Assembly (NCBI RefSeq): GCF_019303475.1
Contig: NZ_JABLSI010000018.1
Location: forward strand, 1 to 64,000
Direction of reading: 5' to 3'
DNA: 64,000 nucleotides
Origin: Streptomyces sp. JJ38
Lineage (GTDB): Bacteria > Actinomycetota > Actinomycetes > Streptomycetales > Streptomycetaceae
Shown: positions 46,741-61,070 of the stretch, piece after piece
How positions within the stretch are numbered: position 1 is the first letter of the stretch
Layout of the letters: the number at the start of each line of letters is the position of its first letter
Position numbers and translations under genes: made by a program
Notes under the pieces: model-generated
Told to the model about the DNA's origin: nothing
Seen by the model: the letters and a program-made list of their open reading frames with translations, nothing else
Database searches by the model: none

Positions 46741-47934
<1,194 letters not shown>

Positions 47935-47963
47935 CCTGACGGTTCCTGGCGGAACCAGCTCCA

Positions 47964-48007
47964 CGTGAGGGGCCCGTACGACCACCCGGTCGTACGGGCC
48001 CCTCACG
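47964..48007 (+). terminator. 20-bp terminator after tuf
   Basis: CGTGAGGGGCCCGTACGACC and its exact complement form a perfect 20-bp stem with loop ACCC, starting 29 bases after the stop. A small hairpin GGTTCC-tggc-GGAACC precedes it (47941-47956). Confidence 0.93.
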
Positions 48008-48104
48008 CGTGTCCGGGGCTCCTCCCACGTGGGTCCGGGTCTCCTCCCGCGTGTTCGGGGCCCTGGGGAACGGCGGGCGCGGCCGGAGGCTCACCGTACG
48101 GCGC

Positions 48105-48124
48105 AGATACCCCCCTAGGTATCT
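48105..48124. promoter_or_regulatory. CsoR/CstR-type operator 1
   Basis: AGATACC-cccccta-GGTATCT class palindrome: AGATACC (48105-48111) and GGTATCT (48118-48124). Its C-run/G-run core is shared with the sites at 48147 and 51056. About 60 bases before the CstB-like gene. Confidence 0.7.
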
Positions 48125-48146
48125 CTGCTACGGTGGAGGCAGTAGA

Positions 48147-48160
48147 TACCCCCCGGGGTA
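48147..48160. promoter_or_regulatory. CsoR/CstR-type operator 2
   Basis: TACCCC-cc-GGGGTA, the classic dyad of CsoR-family repressors, 21 bases before the GTG of the CstB-like gene and probably overlapping its promoter. Confidence 0.75.
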
Positions 48161-48181
48161 AGCATCCGAAGGAGAGTGACC

Positions 48182-49549
48182 GTGTACTTCGTCGACACCT
48201 TCGAGACCGAGGGGCTGGGCAACCGGAGCTATCTGGCCGGCGGGCCCGGCGGTGCGGTGGCGGTCGATCCACCGCGCGACATCGAGCGGGTGCTCGCCGC
48301 GGCCGCCCGGCGGGGCGTGCGCGTCGTGTTCGTGGCGGAGACGCACGTGCACAACGACTACGTCACCGGCGGCCTGGAGCTGGCCCGGCTGACGGGGGCC
48401 CGCTACCTGGTCCCGGCCGGTGCCCACGTGTCCTTCGCCCGCACCCCCGTCGCCGACGGCGACACCGTCACGGTGGACGAGGGTCTGCGGCTGCGGGCCC
48501 TGGCGACTCCGGGGCACACCCCGCACCACACCTCCTACGTGCTGGAGGACGAGGGCCGGGCCGTGGCCGCGTTCACCGGCGGCTCGCTGCTCATCGGCTC
48601 GGTGGGCCGTCCCGACCTCGTCGAGCCCCGGCTGACCGAGCGGCTGGCCCGCGCTCAGCACGCCTCCGCCCACCGTCTCGCCGAGGCCCTGGGCGACGAG
48701 GTGCCGGTGCTGCCCACCCACGGGTTCGGCAGCTTCTGCGCCTCGGCCCAGTCCGACGGCGACGCGACGACGATCGGCGAGGAGCGCGCCGCCAACGAGG
48801 CTTTCACGCTGGACGTGGACACCTTCGTCGAGCGGATGCTGGCCGGGCTGGACGACGTCCCCGCGTACTACGCGCACATGGGCCCGATCAACGCCGCGGG
48901 GCCCGCCCCCGTCGACCTCACCCCGCCGGCGCCGGCCGACGCCGAGCGCATCGCCGAGCGGCTGGCCGCCGGTGAGTGGGTGGTGGACCTGCGCAGCCGC
49001 GTCGCCTACGCCGCGGGCCACGTGGCCGGTTCGGTCAACTTCGAGGGCGAGGGCAAGCTCGCCACCTACCTCGCCTGGCTCATGCCGTGGGGCAAGCCCG
49101 TCACCCTGCTCGCGGACACCCCGGAGCAGCTCGCCGAGGCGCAGCGCGAGCTGGCCCGCGTCGGCATCGACCGCCCGGCCGCGGCCGCCACCGGCGACCC
49201 GGCCGGCTGGGTCCGCGAGGGCGAGGCGCTCGCCTCCTTCCCGCGCGCGACGTTCGCCGAGCTCGCCGACGCCCGTGGGCGCGGTGAGGACGTGGTGGTG
49301 CTCGACGTGCGCCGCGACTCCGAGCGCGCCGGCGAACGTGTCGAGGGGTCGGTGCACATCCCGGTCCACGAGCTGCACGCCCGTCTCGGGGAGGTCCCCG
49401 CGGGCACGGTGTGGACGCACTGCGCCAGCGGGATGCGTGCGGCGATCGCCGCCTCCCTCCTCGACGCCGCCGGCCGCCGCGTCGTCGCCGTCGACGACGC
49501 GTTCGACGCCGCCGCCCGGGCCGGGCTGACGGCCGCCTCCCGCCCCTGA
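48182..49549 (+). CDS. CstB-like persulfide dioxygenase-rhodanese fusion
   Basis: Cytosolic 455-aa enzyme. Residues 1 to about 245 form a metallo-beta-lactamase fold with ETHVHNDYVTGG (H55, H57, D59) and TPGHTPHHTSYV, the iron site of persulfide dioxygenases. Then a rhodanese domain without a catalytic Cys (WVVDLRSRVAYAAGHVAGSVNF) and a second, active rhodanese with Cys414 in THCASGMRAA. This three-part order matches CstB of Staphylococcus aureus, which oxidises low-molecular-weight persulfides to thiosulfate. GTG 48182 was chosen because GAAGGAG is seven bases upstream. Expected to be induced by sulfide through the operators at 48105-48160. Confidence 0.85.
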   Translation: MYFVDTFETEGLGNRSYLAGGPGGAVAVDPPRDIERVLAAAARRGVRVVFVAETHVHNDYVTGGLELARLTGARYLVPAGAHVSFARTPVADGDTVTVDEGLRLRALATPGHTPHHTSYVLEDEGRAVAAFTGGSLLIGSVGRPDLVEPRLTERLARAQHASAHRLAEALGDEVPVLPTHGFGSFCASAQSDGDATTIGEERAANEAFTLDVDTFVERMLAGLDDVPAYYAHMGPINAAGPAPVDLTPPAPADAERIAERLAAGEWVVDLRSRVAYAAGHVAGSVNFEGEGKLATYLAWLMPWGKPVTLLADTPEQLAEAQRELARVGIDRPAAAATGDPAGWVREGEALASFPRATFAELADARGRGEDVVVLDVRRDSERAGERVEGSVHIPVHELHARLGEVPAGTVWTHCASGMRAAIAASLLDAAGRRVVAVDDAFDAAARAGLTAASRP

Positions 49550-49594
49550 GCGGCCCGCCCCCCCTGACCACCCCCGTACAGCGAAGGCAGAGCC

Positions 49595-49954
49595 ATGCCC
49601 CTCTTCCGACGCGGTCGAGACCGCCTCACCCCCGAACAGGCCCACGCCCGAACCGGCGACGGCGCCGCCGTCCTGCTGGACGTGCGGGAAGCGCCGGAGT
49701 GGGCGGCCGGGCACGCCCCCGCCGCCGTCCACCTGCCGCTGACCCGCCTCACGGCCGGGGCCGCCCTGCCCGACGAGGCGCGGGGGCGGCCGGTGGTGGC
49801 GATCTGCCGTTCCGGCAACCGCTCCCAGCGGGCCGCCGAGCTGCTCGTCGCCCGGGGCGTCGACGCCGTCGACGTCGCGGGCGGGATGGCCGCCTGGGCA
49901 CGTGCCGGACTGCCCGTCGTCGACGCGCGTGGGCGGGACGGCCGGATCGCGTGA
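49595..49954 (+). CDS. Rhodanese-like sulfurtransferase
   Basis: A 119-aa single rhodanese domain: VLLDVREAPEWAAGHAPAAVHLPL, then VVAICRSGNRSQRAAELL with catalytic Cys71, then DVAGGMAAWARAGLPV. It moves sulfane sulfur between carriers. It lies 45 bases after the CstB-like gene and its stop overlaps the TauE gene by four bases, so all three form one operon. Confidence 0.9.
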   Translation: MPLFRRGRDRLTPEQAHARTGDGAAVLLDVREAPEWAAGHAPAAVHLPLTRLTAGAALPDEARGRPVVAICRSGNRSQRAAELLVARGVDAVDVAGGMAAWARAGLPVVDARGRDGRIA

Positions 49955-50724
49955 GCGCCCTGGTCCTGGCCCTGCTGGCGGGGGCCGTGGTCGGCCTGGC
50001 ACTCGGGGCGCTCGGCGGCGGCGGGAGCGTCCTGGCCGTACCGGCGCTGATCTACCTGCTCGGCTTCAGCCCGGTGGCGGCGACGAGCGCCAGTCTCCTC
50101 ATCGTCTCCGCCACCTCGCTGACCGCCCTGTACACCCACGCCAGAGCGGGCAACGTCCGGTGGCGGGTGGGGGCGGCCTTCGCCGCGGCGGGCCTGCTGC
50201 CCGCGGCCCTCGCCGGGGCCGCGGCCGCCCGGCTGCCGCAGGTCGCCCTCACGCTGGCGTTCGCCCTCGTCGCGACCCTCGCCGCGCTGCGCATGCTGCG
50301 CCCGGCCCCGGACCCGGCCGCTGCCGGCGCCGGTGCGCCGCGGGTGCGGCCGGTGAAGGCGGCGGGAACCGGGGCGGGGCTGGGTGCGCTGACCGGTCTG
50401 CTGGGCGTGGGCGGTGGCTTCCTCGCCGTCCCGGCCCTGGTCACGGTGCTGGCCTTCGAGATGCCGGCCGCCGTGGGCACGAGCCTGCTGGTGATCTCGG
50501 CGAACTCCCTGACATCCCTGGTCACCCGCGCGGGCGTCGCCGTCCCCCTCGACTGGTCGGTCATCGCCCCGTTCACCGCGGCCGCCGTCCTGGGCGCCTG
50601 GGACGGCAGGCGGCTCGCGGCCCGGGTCTCGGTGCCCCGGTTGCAGCGACTGTTCGCGGCGGTGCTCCTGGCCGTGGCCGCCTTCATGCTCGTCGACGTC
50701 CTCCTCGTCGGCCTCCTCGGCTGA
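49951..50724 (+). CDS. TauE/SafE family anion exporter
   Basis: A 257-aa membrane protein with about eight helices and the two-fold family repeat: GALGGGGSVLAVPALIYLLG and GLLGVGGGFLAVPALVTVLA. TauE/SafE proteins move sulfonates, sulfite or related anions; in sulfide-oxidation clusters they export sulfite or thiosulfate. GTG start overlapping the rhodanese stop. A basic cytosolic loop (RVRPVKAAGTG) separates the two halves. Confidence 0.88.
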   Translation: MSALVLALLAGAVVGLALGALGGGGSVLAVPALIYLLGFSPVAATSASLLIVSATSLTALYTHARAGNVRWRVGAAFAAAGLLPAALAGAAAARLPQVALTLAFALVATLAALRMLRPAPDPAAAGAGAPRVRPVKAAGTGAGLGALTGLLGVGGGFLAVPALVTVLAFEMPAAVGTSLLVISANSLTSLVTRAGVAVPLDWSVIAPFTAAAVLGAWDGRRLAARVSVPRLQRLFAAVLLAVAAFMLVDVLLVGLLG

Positions 50725-50754
50725 GTGGGAGGGGGTGTCGTGCTCCGGGGCGGG

Positions 50755-51072
<318 letters not shown>

Positions 51073-51114
51073 CTATCCAGGGTGCCACCCGAAATGAAAA
51101 GCGGAGAAATCGCC

Positions 51115-51675
51115 ATGAGCAGCGCCATAGCCCCCGAGCAGGTCCACGGCCGACTCGCCGAGCTGACCGTCATCGACGTCCGCACCCCCGGCGAGTACGC
51201 CTCCGGCCACCTGCCGGGCGCCCACAACGTCCCCCTCGACGACCTCGACCGCGCCCTGCCCGCGCTCAAAGCCGCCGCCGGGCGCGGGGACCTGCTCGTG
51301 GTGTGCGCCTCCGGCGCCCGCTCCGCGACGGCCTGCCGGCGGCTGGCCGAGAACGGCGTCACCGCCGCCAGTCTCACCGGGGGCACCACCGCCTGGACCC
51401 AGCTCGGGCACGACATCCACCGCCCCGCCGGCGTCCGCGCCCCCTGGGCCATGGAGCGGCAGGTGCGCCTGGCCGCCGGCGGCCTCGTCCTGACCGGGCT
51501 GCTGGCCGGTCTCCGCCTGCCGCACGCCCGGTGGATCTCCGCCGGGGTCGCGGGCGGTCTGGTGTTCTCCGCCCTCACCGACACCTGCGGCATGGCCCGC
51601 GTCCTCGCCAGGCTTCCGCACAACCGGCCGCGAGGCGCCGACCTCGACGCCACCCTCGCCGCCCTCGAAGGCTGA
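51115..51675 (+). CDS. Rhodanese domain fused to a two-helix membrane tail (DUF2892-like)
   Basis: A 186-aa protein. Residues about 1-100 are a rhodanese domain with DVRTPGEYASGHLPGAHNVPL and Cys64 in VVCASGARSATACRRL. The C-terminal part has two hydrophobic segments (QVRLAAGGLVLTGLLAGL and WISAGVAGGLVFSALTDTCGMARVLARLP), the DUF2892-type tail that anchors it to the membrane. The ATG at 51115 has GGAG nine bases upstream; an in-frame ATG at 51094 is possible. Member of the CstR regulon. Confidence 0.87.
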   Translation: MSSAIAPEQVHGRLAELTVIDVRTPGEYASGHLPGAHNVPLDDLDRALPALKAAAGRGDLLVVCASGARSATACRRLAENGVTAASLTGGTTAWTQLGHDIHRPAGVRAPWAMERQVRLAAGGLVLTGLLAGLRLPHARWISAGVAGGLVFSALTDTCGMARVLARLPHNRPRGADLDATLAALEG

Positions 51676-51695
51676 CCCGGGCGCAACCGGGAGGC

Positions 51696-51761
51696 TCAGG
51701 CCGGCTCCAGGCCGCCGTCGACGGTGAGGGCCTGCCCGGTGAGCCGGCCCGCCTCCGGGCG
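51696..51761 (-). pseudogene. C-terminal remnant of a short-chain dehydrogenase
   Basis: On the minus strand the last codons before TGA (51696-51698) read PEAGRLTGQALTVDGGLEPA, the standard C-terminal end of an SDR (TGQ-x-L-x-VDGG). No further SDR sequence lies upstream, because the arsR promoter begins there. The rest of the gene has been lost, so this is a scar of a rearrangement. Confidence 0.75.
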
Positions 51762-51767
51762 TGCGCA

Positions 51768-51789
51768 ATGTTCGAAGTTCGCCGAACAT
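51768..51789. promoter_or_regulatory. ArsR operator candidate
   Basis: ATGTTCG-aagttcgc-CGAACAT, a 7-bp perfect dyad 23 bases before the arsR ATG, AT-richer than its surroundings. Likely site of autorepression. Confidence 0.65.
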
Positions 51790-51811
51790 CGAATCACGGT
51801 ACCATGGGCCT

Positions 51812-52150
51812 ATGAAGGACCCGCGGCACCCCGCCACCGACGAGATCGCCCTCACCCGGGTTCTGGCCGCCCTCAGCGACCCCGTCCGGCTCGGCGTCGT
51901 CCGCCTCCTCGCCGACGGCGGTGAGCGCGGCTGGGGTGAACTCCGGGCCCCCGTGGCCAAGTCGACGCTCAGTCACCACATGAAGGTGCTGCGGGACGCG
52001 GGCATCACCCGCACGCGCCAGGAGGGCACCCGCTGCTACGTGCGGCTGCGCCGCGCCGACCTCGACGACCGCTTCCCGGACCTGCTCCCGGCCGTCCTCG
52101 CCGCCGCCGGCGCCGACGACGTCGGCGCCGAGGTCACCGCGGCGCCTTGA
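51812..52150 (+). CDS. ArsR family winged-helix regulator
   Basis: A 112-aa repressor. The wHTH includes LTRVLAALSDPVRLGVVRLLADG, WGELRAPVAKSTLSHHMKVLRDAGITRTRQEG (recognition helix) and CYVRLRRADLDDRFPDLL. No clear metal-binding Cys pair is present, so a non-metal ligand is likely. The last 38 codons are duplicated at 55625-55739. In the undisturbed order it would face the doxX gene. Confidence 0.88.
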   Translation: MKDPRHPATDEIALTRVLAALSDPVRLGVVRLLADGGERGWGELRAPVAKSTLSHHMKVLRDAGITRTRQEGTRCYVRLRRADLDDRFPDLLPAVLAAAGADDVGAEVTAAP

Positions 52151-52151
52151 G
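52037..52151. repeat. 115-bp direct repeat, left copy (3' end of arsR)
   Basis: It matches 55625-55739 in the same orientation at 113 of 115 positions (differences in the GGC GCC / GGC TCC codon and the base before TGA). The left copy is the intact end of arsR. The pair brackets a 3.47-kb segment with a foreign-looking ABC operon. Confidence 0.93.
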
Positions 52152-52168
52152 CGGGCCCCCGCTGTGTG

Positions 52169-54271
52169 TCAGGAAGACGTCCTCGTCATGACCCGGACTC
52201 CGACGATTCCCGCACCTGCGAGCAGTGCGGCGAGGGCGCAGGTGACCAGGATGGTGCTGAGCGGGAAGGCGATGGACGGATCGAGATTGCTCCACGAGAG
52301 TGAGGCAATGATTCCGGCCACCAATCCAGTTCCGGCGACGACCGTGTACCCCAGAAGAAACTCTCGGACGTTGATGCCGCGGATTCGGTGATGTGTCAGC
52401 CCCAGGGCCGTGAGGAGCCGCGCTCCCCGGCGCCCAGTCGCTGTTCGATCGACCATTCCGACGGCGAGGCTGAGGAACGTGAGTGAACTCAGGACGGTGA
52501 TACCCCCGAAGATCCAGGAGACGAGATCGGACTCCTGGAGGGTGAGGTCGGCTGCCGAGATCACGTTGAGCGCGGCGGGGTTTCCGAGTGCCGCGGCGCG
52601 TATATCCATCTCGAACTGTGTACTGCGCGGCGCCAGGATGATCACCTGGCTTTCGGAGGTGAGTCGATCGAATTCCGGGCGGACCAGCTCGACCTCCATC
52701 GGGGAACGGACGACGCCCGCCAGGCGATCCTCAGCCGTGGCCTCCAGCGTCCCGTCAGGAGCACAGGCCCGCGTGTTCAGCAGGCGGCTGATATCCGTGC
52801 AGGTCGCGCCAAGCTCCATGACAGGGGCGTTTCCCTGGCTCGTGGACTGGCTGACAGGAGCCGCGACAGCGTCCGGAAGGTCGCGGAGCAACAGCTCGAA
52901 GTCGACGTCACCGAGCGCTCCGCGAAGGAGGACGGCTTCGGCGGAGACATCCGGCGGCGTCGGCGGGTCGAGGTCGCGTGCTGCGCTGATCCACGCCGCG
53001 ACAACCGGCGTGATCACGAGAAGGGCCGCGATGCCGTACAGCGGCCGGACCGCGGAGCGGGGATCGTACTGAAGCCGCCGCCCGGCCAGCACGTCCTCGG
53101 GGGATCGTGCCCTCGTCGCCATGCGAGCGCCCACGATGCGCCCGATCAGCGGGAGGACCAGTGGGACTCCCGCGGCGAGCAGGACCACACCGGCCAGGGT
53201 GGTGGTGGATGCCGAATCGCCCGCGCTGAACGTCGCTACGACCAGCAGGAGCACCGCGGCCGCTGCGGGTGCTGAGCGCAGGGCGGGCAGCCGCGGGCGG
53301 CCCGCCCGGGGCCGCGGGGTGGCCTGGTGGCGTTCCTCCCCGCGGCGTTCCACGACGACGGCCAGCCGGCCGAATGCGATGGTCAGAACCAGGAGCAGGA
53401 GCACCACGGCCCATAGCGGCAGCCTGAGTGCGCCCTCGGCTACCGGGCGGTTGACGACGGGGATGTGGCCCATCAACGGACGGCACACCATCCACAACAG
53501 CGTTCCGGCGGCAAGCCCTGGCAGGAATGCAGCCGCTGACTCCAGGACGATCAGCCGTCGACGGCGCTTGGTGGCGACACCCACGGCGCGCAACAGAGCC
53601 AGACGCTGGGCGCGCAGCGGAGCGGACACGGCAGTACCCGCTGCAGCGAGCACGATCAACGGTACGACGACAAAACCCGTCAGGGCGAGTGCCATGGCCG
53701 GAACATCGATCTCGGTCCCCTCACCGATGCTCGGGCCAGGGCCGCCGAACCCGGCGACGTCGACGGTGTCCACGCCCATGGTGCCGCCTGTCGGCATGTG
53801 CCGGTAGGCCAGGAGTTCGCCCGGGTTGAGAACCCCTTCGTCACCGAGGACGGAAGCGTCGGGGAACCGCATCGCCAACGCAGGGTGCTTCTCGGCAAGG
53901 TCTGCCAGCCCGGGGGAGATGGCCCAGCCTCCCGGTTCGGGCCATGTCGTCATCCCCGGCGGCATCGCGGCCGGGGAATCCAGACTTACCGGGTCGAGCC
54001 ATACGACCGGGTACTGGTCGGGCCCCCAGGTGTCCGTTCGCTGATCGACCCGGAGCACAGCGGGTTCACCGGGCGTGGCCAGAGTCAGCGTCCGTGCTTG
54101 GAAGCGTGCGCTCTCCGCGGCCAGCATGTGGACCACGCCCACGGTGAACAGCGCCGTCGCGGCGGCCACGGCGGCCACGGCGCCAAGGAGAACCAGGCGT
54201 AGTCGCTGTTGCGGGTGCTGGCCCGTCGCCAGACGGAGAGCGACTCGGAGCGTCGTTCTGCCCGCGTTCAC
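52169..54271 (-). CDS. ABC transporter permease, FtsX-like
   Basis: A 700-aa membrane protein with about ten helices arranged as two FtsX/MacB-like halves. There is an N-terminal helix (LVLLGAVAAVAAATALFTVGVV), then a large extracytoplasmic part, then helix groups including MALALTGFVVVPLIVLAAAG and TFLSLAVGMVDRTATGRRGARLLTALGLTHHRIRGINVREFLLGY. The overall plan is that of Gram-positive antimicrobial-peptide or lipoprotein exporters that couple to a separate ATPase. It overlaps the ATPase gene by four bases. Base composition is a little less GC-rich than the core. Confidence 0.85.
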   Translation of the reverse strand: MNAGRTTLRVALRLATGQHPQQRLRLVLLGAVAAVAAATALFTVGVVHMLAAESARFQARTLTLATPGEPAVLRVDQRTDTWGPDQYPVVWLDPVSLDSPAAMPPGMTTWPEPGGWAISPGLADLAEKHPALAMRFPDASVLGDEGVLNPGELLAYRHMPTGGTMGVDTVDVAGFGGPGPSIGEGTEIDVPAMALALTGFVVVPLIVLAAAGTAVSAPLRAQRLALLRAVGVATKRRRRLIVLESAAAFLPGLAAGTLLWMVCRPLMGHIPVVNRPVAEGALRLPLWAVVLLLLVLTIAFGRLAVVVERRGEERHQATPRPRAGRPRLPALRSAPAAAAVLLLVVATFSAGDSASTTTLAGVVLLAAGVPLVLPLIGRIVGARMATRARSPEDVLAGRRLQYDPRSAVRPLYGIAALLVITPVVAAWISAARDLDPPTPPDVSAEAVLLRGALGDVDFELLLRDLPDAVAAPVSQSTSQGNAPVMELGATCTDISRLLNTRACAPDGTLEATAEDRLAGVVRSPMEVELVRPEFDRLTSESQVIILAPRSTQFEMDIRAAALGNPAALNVISAADLTLQESDLVSWIFGGITVLSSLTFLSLAVGMVDRTATGRRGARLLTALGLTHHRIRGINVREFLLGYTVVAGTGLVAGIIASLSWSNLDPSIAFPLSTILVTCALAALLAGAGIVGVRVMTRTSS

Positions 54272-55014
54272 CGAAGCTCTCCGGGGGAAGCCGTGGCGGG
54301 AGCTGCCTGAAGACGGCCCGACTTGAGGATGAGCGTCCGGTCCATGGCACGTGCGACCGCCGTGTCATGGGTGGCGACGACGAGTGCGGCCCCGCCCTGG
54401 CGGCATGCGTCCAACAGGACCTCAGTCACGCGCTGGGCGTTGTTCTCGTCCAGTGCCCCGGTGGGCTCGTCGGCCAGGACCAGCCGTGGTCCACAGACCA
54501 GTGCCCGTGCGATGGCCGCACGCTGCGCTTCGCCGCCTGAGAGCTCCTCGGGTGGCCGGTGTCCGTACCCGGCCAGGCCGACCAGGCTCAGCAGTTCCTC
54601 CGCCCGGGCTCGCGCCCCGCCTCTGCCGGAGAACATGGCGGGAAGGGCTACGTTCTCCAGGATGCTCAGTTCCGGCATCAGCTCACCGAACTGGAACACC
54701 ATGCCGATGCTCGCCAGCCGAACGGCGGCGGCAGTGTCCTCCGGAACACCACTGAGCGGCTGTCCGCAGATCTCCACGACCCCTTCGGCCGGGTGGGTCA
54801 GACCGGCCAGTGCATTGATCAGCGTGGTCTTGCCGGAGCCGGAAGGACCCATGACTGCTACGGCCTCTCCTGCTCTCACCTCGATGTCGAGTCCGTCCGC
54901 GATCCTGCGTCCTGGTACCTCGATCACCAGGCCGGTCGCTCGGGCGACGGGGCGACGCCCCGGATCATCCTGGGAAGGCGAGTCTCCCGCTCTCGTACTC
55001 CCGCGCTCCACCAC
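54268..55014 (-). CDS. ABC transporter ATP-binding protein, MacB/LolD type
   Basis: A 248-aa ATPase. Walker A GPSGSGKTT (residues about 54-62), Q-loop VFQFGELMPELSILENVALP, signature LSGGEAQRAAIARAL, Walker B LVLADEPTGALD and the H-loop ATHD are all present, so it should be active. The GTG at 55014 has GGGAGA four bases upstream; GTG 55011 is equally possible. It pairs with the permease at 52169-54271, with which it overlaps by four bases. Confidence 0.92.
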   Translation of the reverse strand: MVERGSTRAGDSPSQDDPGRRPVARATGLVIEVPGRRIADGLDIEVRAGEAVAVMGPSGSGKTTLINALAGLTHPAEGVVEICGQPLSGVPEDTAAAVRLASIGMVFQFGELMPELSILENVALPAMFSGRGGARARAEELLSLVGLAGYGHRPPEELSGGEAQRAAIARALVCGPRLVLADEPTGALDENNAQRVTEVLLDACRQGGAALVVATHDTAVARAMDRTLILKSGRLQAAPATASPGELR

Positions 55015-55110
55015 TACGTCTCCCGCCCGTCCTCATGCCCCGTTGTCCACTGGAAAGGGCGTGTCCCGCCACCACTCGCGGAACGGCGGCAGGACACGTG
55101 AGCACTCCTA

Positions 55111-55449
55111 TCAGTACCGCTGCCAGTTACCGCACGAGTCAGGCCAGAAGTTGGGCGTCTCGCACGTCTTGTGACCGGTTATCTTGCCCGGAGAGCCTTC
55201 CTGGGCGCACACGCCGTTGTTTCCGTCTCCGTCCTTGACCGAGCCGGTCCCGGAGGATCCGTACTCGTAGACGGCCTTCACGCCCGTGCGGTCCGACTCC
55301 TTGTCACACGTCTTGATGTCTCTGCGCGAATTGAAGTCGTAAGAGTAGTCGCTGCCGTTGTAGCTGGTGAGAGCGCTCGCGGCGGTCGGGGCCGCAAGGA
55401 CAAGGCCGAATACGGCTGTTGCTCCGACTGCGATGCTGCGCACACGCAT
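55111..55449 (-). CDS. Small secreted four-Cys protein
   Basis: A 112-aa precursor: signal peptide MRVRSIAVGATAVFGLVLAA with a likely cut after ASA (about residue 27), leaving 85 residues with four Cys (TCDKES, GVCAQE, KTCETP, DSCGNW), so two disulfides are possible. Polar, Gly/Asn/Asp-rich, no recognised domain. RBS AAGGAGGGG is eight bases from the ATG. It is the first gene of a likely operon with the ATPase and permease, and could be the exported or sensed partner. Confidence 0.75.
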   Translation of the reverse strand: MRVRSIAVGATAVFGLVLAAPTAASALTSYNGSDYSYDFNSRRDIKTCDKESDRTGVKAVYEYGSSGTGSVKDGDGNNGVCAQEGSPGKITGHKTCETPNFWPDSCGNWQRY

Positions 55450-55624
55450 GTGGATTCCCCTCCTTCTGCTCCCGGTCGGGAGCAAGCAACCCAGAGTCCA
55501 CATGATCACCCCCCAGGGCACAACCTTCGGGATTGCGGAGCGTGACACTTCGACTCGATGTCATCGGCGTGGGCGGCTATCTGGCCGGAATGGACCGTAG
55601 GGGGCAGTTCGCTGCTTGGCCTCT

Positions 55625-55739
55625 TACGTGCGGCTGCGCCGCGCCGACCTCGACGACCGCTTCCCGGACCTGCTCCCGGCCGTCCTCGCCGCCGCCGGCG
55701 CCGACGACGTCGGCTCCGAGGTCACCGCGGCGCCCTGAG
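55625..55739 (+). pseudogene. Right copy of the 115-bp repeat: duplicated arsR 3' end
   Basis: It reads YVRLRRADLDDRFPDLLPAV and on to GSEVTAAP-stop in the arsR frame, with one changed residue (Ala to Ser). There is no start codon or promoter, so it is a non-coding fragment. It lies next to doxX, 3.6 kb from the intact arsR. Confidence 0.9.
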
Positions 55740-55750
55740 TCCCTCCCACG

Positions 55751-56170
55751 TCAGTCGATGGTGAAGAGCGGGCCGGTGAGTGTCAGGCCCAGCTCGTCGC
55801 CGGTGTAGGCGAAGAACGCGAGCAGCATCAGCGAGGCTCCGGCCAGGGCTGTGTCCTTGAGGAAGTGGAGCATCTCGCCCTGCCGTGCCTGGGCGTCCTC
55901 CTCCTTCCAGAACGCGTGCATCAGCAGCGCGGTGGGGACGAGGAAGGCGGCGAGAAGCAGGGCGCCCAGGTCGGCCCAGACGCCGAGCAGCACGCTCAGC
56001 CCGCCGGCGAGGAGCAGCAGGCCGCTGCCGATGGTGGCCGGGGTGGCGGCCGGGATGCCCCGGGAGGCCGCGTAACCGGCCATGGCCTTCGTCTGCGTGA
56101 GGTGGTTGAAGGCAGAGGCGAGGAACAGCGTCGTGAAGAGGATGCGTCCGATGAGCACCAGGACGTCCAT
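55751..56170 (-). CDS. DoxX family membrane protein
   Basis: A 139-aa protein with four predicted helices: VLVLIGRILFTTLFLASAFNHL, PATIGSGLLLLAGGLSVLLGV, ADLGALLLAAFLVPTALLMHAFW, and DTALAGASLMLLAFFAYTGDELGLTL. The E-E-D and F-L-K-D motif between helices is typical of DoxX. The family is linked to thiosulfate:quinone oxidoreductase and to redox stress, which fits the sulfur cluster before it, but no catalytic role is established. It would have been the direct neighbour of arsR before the insertion. Confidence 0.88.
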   Translation of the reverse strand: MDVLVLIGRILFTTLFLASAFNHLTQTKAMAGYAASRGIPAATPATIGSGLLLLAGGLSVLLGVWADLGALLLAAFLVPTALLMHAFWKEEDAQARQGEMLHFLKDTALAGASLMLLAFFAYTGDELGLTLTGPLFTID

Positions 56171-56620
56171 GACGGCCTCCAGGTGTGGACTTCCACTGGG
56201 TGAGAGCTCGTCTCTGCGCAGTTTATCCTGATATGCGCGAGAGGTCTCTTCCGCAGTGCTGCGCCCGCCGCCCGCCGCCCGCCGCCCGCCGCCCGTCGCG
56301 GCGCAGGCCGTGACCGTCGCCACGCCGAGGCGCGCCACGTTCCGGCGGGGCTGCCGCATCACCCGGGTGTCTGCACCACGCGGAGGAGGCGGAGGGATAC
56401 GGGTGCACAGCGTGGGAACGGCACGCGCGGACCGTTCACGGCGGCGGGAGGCGACGGAACGCTTCTCGGCGCCGGAGGACGTGCGGGCGGAGCTGGTCGG
56501 TCTCGACGGCGGCCCGAGGCCCGTGTTCCGCGGCCCGGGCCGGGTGCTCGCCACGGTGACGTTCGACGTCGACGCGGAGGACCGATGTCGGGACGCGGTG
56601 AGCCGGGTTCACCCTTTCGG
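56171..56620. other. Intergenic region with 7-bp tandem repeats
   Basis: About 450 bases. Near 56264-56298 the unit GCCGCCC is repeated about five times. An open frame on the plus strand (VRAELVGLDGGPRPVFRG...) crosses the region but has no start signal or family match, so I do not call it. Confidence 0.45.
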
Positions 56621-56653
56621 GTGGGCCGGGCCGTGTGCGGCGGCCCGGCCCAC
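56621..56653 (-). terminator. Terminator of the seven-repeat protein gene
   Basis: A perfect 13-bp stem GTGGGCCGGGCCG / CGGCCCGGCCCAC with a seven-base loop, just after the gene on the minus strand. Confidence 0.85.
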
Positions 56654-56659
56654 GGGCCC

Positions 56660-57541
56660 TCAGGAGAGGGAGAGCTCGGTGACGTCGGTGGCCTCCAGGA
56701 CCCAGTTCGCGCTGAGGCCGCCCTCCTTGACGTGGGCCTCGCCGTTGCCCTTGAGGACGCCGATGCGGTCGCCGGAGAGGGCGAGCTGGATGATGTCGGT
56801 GGCCTCCTTGACCCAGTTCGCGCTGAGGCCGCCCTCCTTGACGTAGGCGACGCCGTCGTCCTTCAGGACGCCGATCCGGTTCTTGGACAGTTCGAGCTGG
56901 ATGACGTCGGTGGCCTCCTTGACCCACGTCGCGCTGAGGCCGCCCTCCTTGACGTGGGCCACGCCCCGGCCGTCGAGGACGCCGATCCGCTTGCCCGCGA
57001 GGTCGATGTCGGTGACGTCGCGGGCCTCCAGGACCCAGTTCGCGCTGAGGTGACCCTCCTTGACGTAGGCGTCGCCGTTGCCCTTGACGATGCCGATGCG
57101 GTCACCGGAGAGCTCCAGCTCCTTGACCTTCGTGGACTCCTTGACCCACGTCGCGCTGAGGCCGCCCTCCTTGACGTAGGCGTCGCCGTTGGCCTTGACG
57201 ATGCCGATGCGGTCACCGGAGAGGGCGAGCTGCTTGACGTCGGTGGCCTCCTTGACCCAGTTCGCGCTGAGGCCGCCTTCCTTGACGTAGGCGTCGCCGT
57301 CGACCTGGAGGATGCCGATCCGGTCGCCGGCCAGCACGATCTGCTTGACGCCGAGGGCCTCCTTGACCCACGACGCGCTGAGGCCGCCCTCCTTGACGAA
57401 GGCGGTGCCGTCGGCCCGCAGCGTGCCGATGCGGTCGCCGCCGTCCCCCGACACCGTCGCGCTGGCGGTCGTGGCGGTGCCGACGCCCACCAGGCTCGCG
57501 GCGGCCAGCAGGGCGATGGCGGACGGGATCTTGCTGTGCAT
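56660..57541 (-). CDS. Secreted protein of seven 37-residue repeats (beta-propeller-like)
   Basis: A 293-aa secreted protein. Signal peptide (residues 1-28, HSKIPSAIALLAAASLVGVG then a cut after ASA). From residue 36 to the end it is seven copies of a 37-residue unit of the form DRIGxLxxxGxAYVKEGGLS followed by AxWVKEATDVxQLxLSG. Each unit would be one small blade of a propeller or a tandem-repeat lectin; seven copies would close a propeller. Repeats are alike at DNA level (period 111 bases). No catalytic domain. Carbohydrate or cell-wall binding is a guess. Closed by a 13-bp terminator. Confidence 0.85.
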   Translation of the reverse strand: MHSKIPSAIALLAAASLVGVGTATTASATVSGDGGDRIGTLRADGTAFVKEGGLSASWVKEALGVKQIVLAGDRIGILQVDGDAYVKEGGLSANWVKEATDVKQLALSGDRIGIVKANGDAYVKEGGLSATWVKESTKVKELELSGDRIGIVKGNGDAYVKEGHLSANWVLEARDVTDIDLAGKRIGVLDGRGVAHVKEGGLSATWVKEATDVIQLELSKNRIGVLKDDGVAYVKEGGLSANWVKEATDIIQLALSGDRIGVLKGNGEAHVKEGGLSANWVLEATDVTELSLS

Positions 57542-57772
57542 TCGATGCTCCGTTCTCGTTGTTCGGGCATATGCCTGAGGGTGATTCCGATCGGAGCCAA
57601 CGCCGCCTCGCCGACGGTGGTCACGCAGTGTCACCCGGATGCCCGACGCGGAGTACCGGAGTGGCGGCGTCGCCCCTCCCGGCGCCTCTCCGACGGCGGG
57701 GGGCTGGTGTCCGCTCGGGCGTACGTGCGAACATCCCGCGATGTGGACACCAAGCGGGCCGGGCGCGGCCGA

Positions 57773-58507
57773 ATGACGATCCAGCGGCTGGGCGTGCTGC
57801 TCGCCGCCGGAGCACTGCTGGCGGCCGGGTGCAGCAGCGAGGACGGCGGGAAGCCGAAGGCCGAGGGCGGCGGCTCGTCGCAGGACGGCGGCTCCGCCGC
57901 GGGCGGCGACGGGGCAGACGCTGACGGCGGCGACGGCGGCGACGGCTCCGAGGGCGGTGGCGAGGGCGCCGACGGCGGCACGGGCGACCAGGGCGACGGC
58001 GGCGGGAGCGACGGCGGCGGGAGCGGCGGCGACGGGGGCAAGGACGGCGACAGCGAGCCCGGTACCCCGGACGGCGCCCCGACGGACCCCGACTGCCCGG
58101 AGCCCGGAGTGCGCGTCATGCCCGGGCCCGTGGACGGCGACGACGGGCTGCGCCTGGTGCGGCTGATGATGATCAATTGCGGGGCCGAGGACTTCCCGGT
58201 GAGCGGCTACCCGGACGTCCGGGTCCTCGGCGAGGGCGGTGAGGAGCTGGACGTCGAGCTGCACCAGGGCGTCTCCGCCGTCTACGACGTGCGCGGCCAC
58301 ACGGGCAAGCCGCAGCGGTTCACGCTGGGGCCCGGGCAGACGGTGGAGTCCGTCGCCGTGTGGCGTCCCGTCGGCGGCTCCGGCGGCCGGGGGCTGAAGG
58401 TGGCGCCGTCCGAGGGTGACCCGTGGCAGAAGCTCAGCCCCGGTGGCATGGAGTTCGGCGGGGTGGACGAACTCGCCGTCAGTCCGTGGAAGACGCTCGG
58501 TTCGTAG
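57773..58507 (+). CDS. DUF4232 lipoprotein with Gly/Asp-rich linker
   Basis: A 244-aa lipoprotein: MTIQRLGVLLAAGALLAAGC with lipobox Cys20, then about 80 residues of Gly, Asp, Ser and Glu repeats (a flexible spacer), then a DUF4232 domain (PDCPEPGVRVMPGPVDGDDGLRLVRLMMINCGAEDFPVSGYPDVRVLG). Two Cys in the domain (DCP, INCG) can form the family's disulfide. Function unknown; common on the Streptomyces surface. Start chosen at ATG 57773. Confidence 0.85.
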   Translation: MTIQRLGVLLAAGALLAAGCSSEDGGKPKAEGGGSSQDGGSAAGGDGADADGGDGGDGSEGGGEGADGGTGDQGDGGGSDGGGSGGDGGKDGDSEPGTPDGAPTDPDCPEPGVRVMPGPVDGDDGLRLVRLMMINCGAEDFPVSGYPDVRVLGEGGEELDVELHQGVSAVYDVRGHTGKPQRFTLGPGQTVESVAVWRPVGGSGGRGLKVAPSEGDPWQKLSPGGMEFGGVDELAVSPWKTLGS

Positions 58508-58528
58508 TCGGTCACGTACCGTGCGCAC

Positions 58529-58927
58529 ATGAGTGAGCGAAGTGCGATCCTCAGCGGTTCGACGTTCGAGGAGCGGATCGGGTACGCGCGGGCCGTCGTC
58601 GAGGGGGACCGGGTGCACGTCTCCGGCACCACGGGCTTCGACTACGCGACGATGACGATCTCCGACGACGTCGTCGAGCAGGCCGAGCAGTGCCTGCGCA
58701 ACGTCGAGGACGCGCTGAAGCAGGCGGGGTGCACGTTCGACGACGTCGTGCGCGTCCGGTACCTCCTGCCCCGGCGGGAGGACTTCGAGCCCTGCTGGCC
58801 GGTGCTGCGGCGGTGCTTCGGCGAGGTGCGCCCGGCGGCGACGATGATGGTGTGCGGGCTGGCCGACCCCCGGATGAGGTTCGAGATCGAGGTCGACGCC
58901 CGCCGTCCGTCGTTCGTCGGCGACTGA
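58529..58927 (+). CDS. RidA/YjgF family protein
   Basis: A 132-aa trimeric-fold protein related to RidA, which hydrolyses enamine/imine intermediates of PLP enzymes. Visible: YARAVVEGDRVHVSGTTGFDY, AEQCLRNVEDALKQAGCTFDDVVRVRYLL and AATMMVCGLADPRMRFEIEVDA. The catalytic Arg of canonical RidA (R105, in the stretch RxAxxV) is not in its usual place: the site reads VRPAATMMV with the Arg one strand earlier, so function may be specialised. Single gene, 21 bases after the lipoprotein. Confidence 0.85.
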   Translation: MSERSAILSGSTFEERIGYARAVVEGDRVHVSGTTGFDYATMTISDDVVEQAEQCLRNVEDALKQAGCTFDDVVRVRYLLPRREDFEPCWPVLRRCFGEVRPAATMMVCGLADPRMRFEIEVDARRPSFVGD

Positions 58928-58980
58928 TCCTCGATCGTCCGGTTCGTGACCGCGGTGCCGGTGGTGCGGCGCCGCGTCGA

Positions 58981-58992
58981 TAGGCTGCCGTC
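58981..58992 (+). promoter_or_regulatory. -10 element of a probable leaderless tetR transcript
   Basis: TAGGCT (58981-58986) lies six bases from the ATG and no RBS is visible, a layout like that of murB. Confidence 0.55.
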
Positions 58993-59565
58993 ATGTCGTC
59001 CCGTCGCCTCACCGCACGCCAGACCGACCTGCTGGAACGGCTGGTGGCGCTGCTGCTGGCGGAGGGTTTCTCCGCCTTCACCCTCGACGGCCTGGCCGAG
59101 CGCCTGCGCTGTTCCAAGACGACGCTTTACCAGCTCGCGGGCAGTAAGCAGGATCTGGTCGTCGAGGCTGTCAAGCACTACTTCCGCGGGGCGACCGAGG
59201 CCGTCGAGAAGCGGGTGGCGGAGACGGTCACGCCCAGCGACCGGGTGCACGCCTACCTGAACGCCGTGGCCGAGCAGCTTCGGCCGCTGTCCCGGCGGTT
59301 CCTGGACGACATGGCCGCGTTCCCGCCCGCGCGGCAGGTGTACGAGGCCAACACCCAGCGGGCCGCCGAGCGGGTGCGGCAGCTGATCGCCGAGGGCGTG
59401 ACGGCCGGGGTCTTCCGTCCGGTGGACGCCGCCTTCGTCGGTGAGGTGGCCGCGGCGACGATGCGCCAGATCCAGCAGGGCGAGCTCGCCGCCCGTACGG
59501 GGCTGAGCGATTCCGAGGCGTACGCCCAGCTGGCGTCGCTGATCGTGCACGCCGTCTCGCCCTGA
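58993..59565 (+). CDS. TetR family regulator
   Basis: A 190-aa repressor. Helix-turn-helix at about residues 25-50: LLAEGFSAFTLDGLAERLRCSKTTLYQLAGSKQDLV. The C-terminal ligand and dimer domain is helical. It is 117 bases before an acyl-CoA dehydrogenase gene and the intergenic region carries dyads, so it probably controls that gene in response to an acyl-CoA. A 13-bp terminator follows. Confidence 0.92.
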   Translation: MSSRRLTARQTDLLERLVALLLAEGFSAFTLDGLAERLRCSKTTLYQLAGSKQDLVVEAVKHYFRGATEAVEKRVAETVTPSDRVHAYLNAVAEQLRPLSRRFLDDMAAFPPARQVYEANTQRAAERVRQLIAEGVTAGVFRPVDAAFVGEVAAATMRQIQQGELAARTGLSDSEAYAQLASLIVHAVSP

Positions 59566-59577
59566 GTCGATCTCCGC

Positions 59578-59610
59578 AGGTCCGGCGTCCTGTATGCGGA
59601 CGCCGGACCT
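59578..59610 (+). terminator. Intrinsic terminator after tetR
   Basis: A perfect 13-bp stem AGGTCCGGCGTCC / GGACGCCGGACCT with a seven-base loop, 12 bases after the stop. Confidence 0.88.
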
Positions 59611-59638
59611 CGTCTTGCGCTCCATGGGTACTATGACT

Positions 59639-59664
59639 GATACTCTCGTACTGTTACCAGTATC
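59639..59664. promoter_or_regulatory. TetR operator and promoter of the acyl-CoA dehydrogenase gene
   Basis: Two overlapping dyads: GATACT (59639-59644) with AGTATC (59659-59664), and TACTG-ttac-CAGTA (59649-59662). AT-rich, just before RBS GGAGGTG. Confidence 0.65.
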
Positions 59665-59682
59665 GTTCCGGGAGGTGCTCCG

Positions 59683-60858
59683 ATGCCCGCAACCCGCACT
59701 GTGCCCACGCAGGAAGCGGCCGACCTCATCGACCTCACGCGCACCTTCGCGGTGAAGGAACTCGCGCCCCGGGTCACGGAGGCGGAGACGAACGAGGAGT
59801 TCCCCCGCGACGTCTTCGCCCTGCTCGGCCGCAGCGGGCTCCTTGGCCTGCCCTACGACGAGGAGTACGGCGGCGGCGGTCAGCCCTACGAGGTCTACCT
59901 CCAGGTGCTGGAGGAGATCGCCTCCGTGTGGTCCAGCGTCGCCGTGGGCGTCTCCGTCCACGCCCTGTCCTGCTTCGCGCTCGCCGCCTACGGCACCGAG
60001 GAGCAGAAGCGCGAGTGGCTCCCGGACCTGCTGGGCGGCGAACTGCTCGGCGCCTACTGCCTCTCCGAGCCGCACGCCGGCTCCGACCCGGCGGCCATGC
60101 GCACCCGCGCCGTCCGGGACGGCGACGACTACGTCATCGACGGCGCCAAGGCGTGGACGACGCACGGCGGCCACGCCGACTTCTACACCGTCATGGCCCG
60201 CACCTCCGAGGACCGCGCGCACGGCGTCTCCTGCTTCCTCGTCCCCGCCGACACCCCCGGCCTCAGTGCCGACCCGCCCGAGCGCAAGATGGGCCTCACC
60301 GGCTCCGCGACGGCCACCATGCGGTTCGACGGCGTCCGCGTCCCGGCCCACCGCCGCATCGGGGCCGAGGGCGAGGGCCTGCGCATCGCCCTGGCCTCCC
60401 TGGACTGCGGCCGGCTCGGCATCGCCGCCGTCGCCACCGGCCTCGCCCAGGGCTCCTTCGACCACGCCCTGCGCTACGCCCAGGAGCGCGAGACCTTCGG
60501 CAAGCCGATCATCGAGCACCAGGGCCTGGCCTTCGTCCTCGCCGACATGGACGCCGCCATCGCCTCCGCCCGCGCCGCCACCCAGTCCGCGGCCCGGCTC
60601 AAGGACCTGGGCCTGCCCTTCACCCACGAGGCGTCCGTCGCCAAGCTCGTCGCCACGGACAACGCGATGAAGGTGACCACCGACGCCGTCCAGGTCCTCG
60701 GCGGCTACGGCTACACCCGGGACTTCCCCGTCGAGCGGCACATGCGCGAGGCCAAGGTCATGCAGATCTTCGAGGGCACCAACCAGATCCAGCGCCTGGT
60801 CATCAGCCGCGCGCTGACCCGCGAGGCCGCCGGCGCCGTCACCGTCGCCGCCCGCTAG
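59683..60858 (+). CDS. Acyl-CoA dehydrogenase
   Basis: A 391-aa FAD enzyme for the first step of acyl-CoA beta-oxidation. Signatures: CLSEPHAGSDPAAMRTRA (about residues 126-143), KAWTTHGGHADFYTVMA, GLAQGSFDHALRYAQERETFGKPIIEHQGL, VLGGYGYTRDFPVERHMREAK and the catalytic Glu region IFEGTNQIQRLVISR. All parts of the family are present. Under likely TetR control. Chain-length preference cannot be told. Confidence 0.94.
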   Translation: MPATRTVPTQEAADLIDLTRTFAVKELAPRVTEAETNEEFPRDVFALLGRSGLLGLPYDEEYGGGGQPYEVYLQVLEEIASVWSSVAVGVSVHALSCFALAAYGTEEQKREWLPDLLGGELLGAYCLSEPHAGSDPAAMRTRAVRDGDDYVIDGAKAWTTHGGHADFYTVMARTSEDRAHGVSCFLVPADTPGLSADPPERKMGLTGSATATMRFDGVRVPAHRRIGAEGEGLRIALASLDCGRLGIAAVATGLAQGSFDHALRYAQERETFGKPIIEHQGLAFVLADMDAAIASARAATQSAARLKDLGLPFTHEASVAKLVATDNAMKVTTDAVQVLGGYGYTRDFPVERHMREAKVMQIFEGTNQIQRLVISRALTREAAGAVTVAAR

Positions 60859-61070
60859 CCCCGCCCCGGGTCGCTCTCCGCGGGTGCCCGCCAGCCCGAC
60901 GGCGGGCGCTCTCCGCGGGTGCCCGCGCGCCCACCTGGCCGAACGTCGGGCGCCCGTTAGCGGGCGTTCGCGTCTCCGGCCGCCCGGCGCACGGCCCCGG
61001 ACGCCGCCCCGTGCCGATACTCGGACCCGCACCCACCCCCACCGGCACCGGGCGGAAGGAACAGCTGGTC

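Follow-up and report, generated by a model that had tools for sequence, protein, structure and literature searches.

How did the 3' end of an arsR gene come to be present twice, in the same orientation, on either side of a three-gene operon? This question is raised by a locus on contig NZ_JABLSI010000018.1 of Streptomyces sp. JJ38 (assembly GCF_019303475.1), of which we analyzed positions 1 to 64,000 (the window, to which all coordinates refer). The features at issue are the following.

51812-52150, plus strand: intact gene for an arsR-family regulator of 112 amino acids (HTH_20 and HTH_5 above the Pfam cut-off, HTH_metalloreg above the NCBIfam cut-off)
52037-52151, plus strand: left repeat copy, from arsR codon 76 through the stop and one further base, candidate attL (repeat search, alignment)
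52108-52130: perfect palindrome, candidate recombination core (palindrome comparison over the 64-kb window)
52152-55624: putative inserted segment, 3473 bp, G+C 0.680 (repeat search, composition)
52169-54271, minus strand: FtsX-like permease of 700 amino acids (FtsX match below the Pfam cut-off, E 0.0014; hydropathy; 52% to its counterpart in genome G469)
54268-55014, minus strand: ATP-binding cassette (ABC) ATPase with Walker A, signature and Walker B motifs, its gene overlapping that of the permease by 4 nt (PF00005, E 2.3e-33)
55111-55449, minus strand: small secreted protein of 112 amino acids with a signal-peptide-like start and a C-terminal CE...PDSCGNW motif (hydropathy; family alignment A2)
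55625-55739, plus strand: right repeat copy, a displaced or duplicated arsR 3' end, candidate attR (repeat search, alignment)

The direct repeat of the arsR end reported in an earlier, sequence-only reading was recovered with the same coordinates and orientation: the two copies are identical at 113 of 115 nucleotides (98%), lie on the same strand and are spaced 3588 nucleotides from start to start. The longest exact match within 50001-56500 is 90 nt, far above the maximum of 16 in 100 dinucleotide shuffles. The copies differ at 52127/55715 (G/T, encoding Ala on the left and Ser on the right) and, synonymously, at 52147/55735 (T/C), and two differences in 115 nt would be compatible with a recent event. 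The left edge of the repeat is abrupt, as the score of a gapped extension upstream was equalled by 16% of 1000 shuffles; on this result we rejected the idea that the arsR homology continues, in more diverged form, beyond the upstream end of the right copy. The palindrome inside the left copy (23 nt, with 11-nt arms and a 1-nt centre) is the longest perfect one of the window, where the runners-up have 10-nt arms, and its equivalent in the right copy, at 55696-55718, contains one mismatch. A search for the 115-bp sequence elsewhere, which the earlier reading had proposed, revealed no third complete copy in the 5.89-Mb genome: two of the 15 matches listed are full-length, the other 13 being partial with 70-93% identity.

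Three intact minus-strand genes occupy the 3,473-bp segment between the repeat copies, and positions, Pfam matches and hydropathy agree with their earlier assignment, and with that of doxX beyond the right copy. The secreted protein shows a single N-terminal hydrophobic segment and no Pfam or NCBIfam family above cut-off. The best NCBIfam model for the ATPase is LolD (196 bits, below its cut-off). The permease matches no NCBIfam family and has about ten hydrophobic segments which, judging from hydropathy, would be accompanied by two long extracytoplasmic loops. The G+C content of the segment, 0.680, compares with 0.734 for 46741-52151 and 0.725 for 55625-61000. At third codon positions, G+C is 0.793 in the permease gene, 0.755 in the ATPase gene and 0.796 in the secreted protein gene; the six flanking genes, from the metallo-beta-lactamase (MBL)-rhodanese gene to doxX, reach 0.956, 0.900, 0.979, 0.947, 0.938 and 0.936. 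This foreign composition, together with the patchy distribution described below, supports the earlier statement that the cargo is alien to its sulfur/ArsR/DoxX context, and on both grounds we accept the segment as a foreign insertion, although, because no empty site was found, the insertion itself is something that we infer.

Some part of the 51700-56200 DNA is matched at E 1e-15 in 113 of the 392 genus genomes, JJ38 included. The permease DNA is matched in G469 and G439 only, that is, in at least two of the 391 other sampled genus genomes, a count that is a floor since at most two candidates were scored per genome. G469 carries the whole operon in the same order (54% for the secreted protein, 62% for the ATPase and 52% for the permease) and in G439 the permease part alone was matched; neither permease locus, over 19 kb each, contains an arsR match. 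The case that had been named as refuting the insertion, namely the operon between arsR and doxX in all relatives with no second repeat, was thus not encountered. At the protein level (E 1e-20) the permease found 27-31% identical matches at eight places in seven of 198 other genomes, and seven of these eight loci show, by eye, a small signal-peptide-like ORF ahead of the ATPase. With the G469 secreted protein as query (E 1e-3), matches were obtained in 24 of 294 other genus genomes. An ATPase and a permease adjoin the match in 15 of the 19 loci inspected (L155-L159, L161-L169 and L172); of the remainder, L160 shows a permease but no ATPase, and L170, L171 and L173 lack both. The three genes constitute, then, a recurrent operon that is unrelated to its present neighbours. 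One and the same globin gene adjoins five of the 19 loci (L157, L158, L160, L161 and L164; PF01152 for the one scanned), and its side is a resident location of this apparently unnamed operon family. A resident copy beside the globin gene of JJ38 itself was sought and rejected: its 1.5-kb flanks contain no FtsX permease, the end of an ATPase domain that shows at the margin of the locus (E 1e-6) was read as belonging to another gene, and a secreted-protein match (E 0.002) falls inside another called gene.

The reading that we prefer, although with somewhat less than even confidence, is that of a decayed integrative element, devoid of its integrase, inserted in the end of arsR. It starts from what is observed, namely the repeat, the intact arsR, the foreign composition, the patchy distribution and the intact cargo. 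The three-gene operon would have arrived as cargo aboard an integrative element, through site-specific recombination at the arsR 3' end, possibly with the palindrome as the core. The element's own copy of this end would now complete arsR on the left (attL) and the original end would have been displaced to the far side, beside doxX (attR); the integrase and transfer genes would have been lost, or supplied in trans, leaving a 3.5-kb remnant similar to a cis-mobilizable element (CIME). The longest perfect palindrome of the window falling within the repeat supports this reading. So does the stop of the identity one base past the arsR stop codon, as would be expected if selection retains nothing but the coding end. 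An integrative insertion with gene-end restoration had already been proposed, and it gains from the intact arsR, the composition, the patchiness and a Streptomyces precedent; an arsR-doxX origin of the site, however, was not shown by the relatives. The features of the flanks are the following.

51700-51785, minus strand: scar of a divergent short-chain dehydrogenase (SDR) gene (frame translation; tblastn with the SDR of locus L114)
51768-51789: inverted repeat ATGTTCG-N8-CGAACAT upstream of arsR, likely its operator (read from the sequence)
55751-56170, minus strand: intact doxX gene of 139 amino acids (PF07681 DoxX, E 3.8e-10, above cut-off)

Among relatives, doxX (67-78% identity across nine loci) was matched in none of nine arsR loci and arsR in none of nine doxX loci (loci of 3.1-19.8 kb, one doxX locus being of 3.1 kb), nor was either gene matched downstream of ygaP in any of 15 relatives (2.0-10.4 kb covered; two loci show no ygaP end). 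Because none of these loci pairs the two genes, a prior arsR-doxX adjacency is not demonstrable from the relatives. Neither a close relative with an empty site nor an arsR-doxX block appeared among the sampled genus genomes, in which the right flank reaches at most 85% and the left flank at most 83% identity (33 genomes left unscored). On the left side, a rhodanese and TauE-type sulfur cluster is matched at E 1e-120 in 197 of 359 scored genomes, JJ38 included, with 71-83% identity among the matches listed; as a route to a syntenic empty site this flank was rejected, the cluster being widespread and its downstream DNA without arsR or doxX. The right flank was discarded too, since it yielded nothing but TetR-acyl-CoA dehydrogenase blocks, at 13 loci, whose surroundings are different. 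At the left junction, a possible remnant of doxX was too weak to use (shuffle P 0.05 and 0.07, with scores as high in 18 of the 961 window segments compared in forward and 27 of the 1034 compared in reverse orientation). The SDR scar keeps the last residues, LTGQALTVDGGLEPA followed by a stop, and a start-like FDVRRTSN in another frame, with the middle missing; tblastn with the L114 SDR matched it (E 9.7e-7) along a segment that two stops interrupt. In relatives the SDR gene adjoins arsR in nine of nine loci, divergently in eight, and it is likewise divergent in L039. The scar is a second rearrangement at the arsR locus.

Several results weigh against a decayed integrative element. None of the three genes called in 52152-55624 was recognized by Pfam as a recombinase, in agreement with the earlier remark that none remains, and the genome scan yielded no PF07508 match and nine PF00589 matches (tyrosine recombinases), none of them on the contig that carries 52169-55449. 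This silence of Pfam is nevertheless weak evidence, because the integrase of PAISt, an element of S. turgidiscabies, itself escapes Pfam, as far as its published description goes (PMC4057263). A second arsR 3' end is absent from all ten related arsR loci within the DNA covered, where the sole match to this end, in L119, is 37 nt long, 78% identical and on the reverse strand. No phage record covers even 80% of the 115 nt, which were partially matched in 20 records. The palindrome may stem simply from preferred codons encoding GADDVGA. Direct repeats of at least 35 nt and more than 80% identity surround none of 11 related cassettes, and therefore the cassette shows no habit of such movement. Moreover, arsR matches of at least 200 nt in other genus genomes have at most 80% identity, compared with 98% between the repeat copies, so that the repeat would have its source in this species or in one very close to it. 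As to carriers, plasmids were rejected, because 11 plasmid records bear only arsR, doxX or ATPase pieces at 60-80% (74% for the best match to the arsR region) and the permease and secreted protein had no tblastn match in plasmids; phages were rejected as well, one record having 98 nt of the ATPase gene besides the partial repeat matches.

Other histories could have produced the same arrangement. A foreign fragment may have been captured at a break by end joining or template switching, the repair copying 115 nt of the target into what would be a long target duplication. We regard this as unlikely, although two copies with 98% identity suit the duplication of one sequence, the insert genes include no recombinase, the SDR scar is a second rearrangement alongside, and break-repair sites of S. 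ambofaciens received inserts of 30 bp to 18.8 kb in five events (PMC5869714). Those inserts were endogenous DNA, the uptake of foreign DNA at such breaks being a speculation of the authors, and the portions of that report that deal with repair mention fill-in, but not long target duplications (PMC5869714). Under break capture, furthermore, a duplication ending within one base of the arsR stop would be a coincidence, whereas this shared end is explained, as the natural limit of common sequence, by unequal recombination between an arsR-operon allele and an arsR-doxX allele (or by a tandem duplication and a later deletion). What lies upstream of the secreted-protein gene would then have been joined to codon 76 of a second arsR allele, and the two differences in 115 nt would be allelic; that the neighbours of arsR and doxX differ among genomes agrees with such exchanges, as does the weak likeness of the left junction to the doxX 3' end. 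The tandem duplication plus replacement named in the earlier reading may account for the repeat as well. For this, however, the operon would first have had to insert beside arsR, with a non-homologous join to follow, and neither allele was seen in the genus sample; we consider this recombination unlikely as well. An assembly artefact or a mixture of strains might be suspected in a draft of 118 contigs, but it is very improbable: completeness is 99.96 and contamination 0.08, the region lies on a 138,634-base contig, and the repeat, with two sites that tell its copies apart, would be spanned by single reads if these were of the ordinary 150 bases.

Whatever brought it here, the cargo matters more than its mode of arrival, as it is a recurrent operon encoding a small cysteine-containing secreted protein for which Pfam and NCBIfam have no model. 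None of nine such proteins in alignment A1 reaches a cut-off of either database, and seven that were aligned have G32, D49, D53, V57, G76, C96, E97, D104 and C106 in common. From the arrangement of the genes, the cargo probably combines a secreted peptide or protein with a dedicated ABC transporter that handles it or affords self-protection, as lactococcin-972-type clusters do; a role in signalling, or in binding a metal or an envelope ligand, would be an alternative. The protein seems to carry a signal peptide of its own, and on that ground the transporter is more likely to protect against it, remove it or sense it than to export it. The operon is a candidate for a new secreted-peptide and self-protection (or signalling) system in an antibiotic-producing genus, and no Streptomyces operon of this kind was found in the open-licence literature. 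A bolder proposal, in which the arsR 3' end and its 23-nt palindrome would be an unrecognised Streptomyces attachment site and the operon a mobile secreted-toxin or peptide module of a new family, with bacteriocin-cluster architecture, an ABC transporter for self-protection and integrase-less spread, seems to us a long shot. Searches for a more specific function were of no use: a single-sequence structure model of the secreted protein had a mean confidence (pLDDT) of 39.5 and was set aside, the nine weak matches of a PDB profile search, eight of them WD-repeat or designed-propeller chains, were not taken as homology, and an anti-phage defence role was rejected because only the ATPase had matches (best mad3, E 7.5e-29), the permease and secreted protein having none. 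No promoter was found by scanning, and two terminators were found, compared with 1.3 in shuffles.

Another small secreted protein group, with the motifs GAFEWKG, DGHNVYV and CRDRGSxHPDNCS, has the same kind of ABC neighbours at L074, L076, L078 and L081. These proteins resemble that of the window at the C-terminal end alone, and a profile comparison, which covered 21 columns of that end, gave a probability of 7.4% and hence does not support homology. Beyond doxX, seven 111-nt direct repeats at 56555-57520 encode 37-residue units, of which GDRIGVLKGNGEAHVKEGGLSANWVLEATDVTELSLS is an example; the minus-strand protein that contains them is probably secreted and has no Pfam family above cut-off, and one stretch is 80% identical in G075. 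The TetR and acyl-CoA dehydrogenase block at 58991-60846 is about 79-85% conserved in 13 genus loci, away from the genes that flank it here.

Lactococcin 972-type clusters consist of genes for a secreted protein, an ABC ATPase and a large permease. The operon resembles them in gene order, and its ATPase scores 150.3 bits with TIGR03608; this is below the cut-off of 254.85, LolD and other models score higher, and at E 0.1 neither Pfam nor NCBIfam places the secreted protein or the eight other members of A1 in the lactococcin 972 family. Concerning the insertion, the type itself is known, both as integrative elements in gene ends and as CIMEs. Neither the arsR 3' end as a target nor this cargo was met in the open-licence literature, in which no search named arsR as target. 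By Pfam, the genes called in the 52152-55624 segment include no integrase, a gene that an autonomous integrative and conjugative or integrative and mobilizable element (ICE or IME) would carry. CIMEs retain attL and attR without integration genes (PMC5704250), and the locus is similar to them in having flanking repeats that include a restored gene end, here 115 nt long with an intact arsR, and no integration or transfer genes; it differs in that no autonomous relative or integrase for the site is known, and its mobility is putative. The repeat is also longer than the 8-60 bp usual for IMEs with tyrosine recombinases, according to the same source (PMC5704250). PAISt of S. turgidiscabies, an ICE, has for its integration site an 8-bp palindrome, TTCATGAA, in the 3' end of bacA; 141 bp of this end are duplicated, with attR inside the duplication, and the same source describes how integrase and att sites erode (PMC4057263). 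It spans 674 kb with intSt and virulence genes, whereas the segment in JJ38 has 3.5 kb, an arsR target, another palindrome and no integrase; if the gene-end insertion is true, the locus would be a short example of the cargo that integrative elements leave behind in Streptomyces, and would add to bacA another protein-coding target. What both share is the 3' end of a protein gene as target, a duplication of this end (141 bp in PAISt, 115 bp here) and a palindrome within it (PMC4057263).

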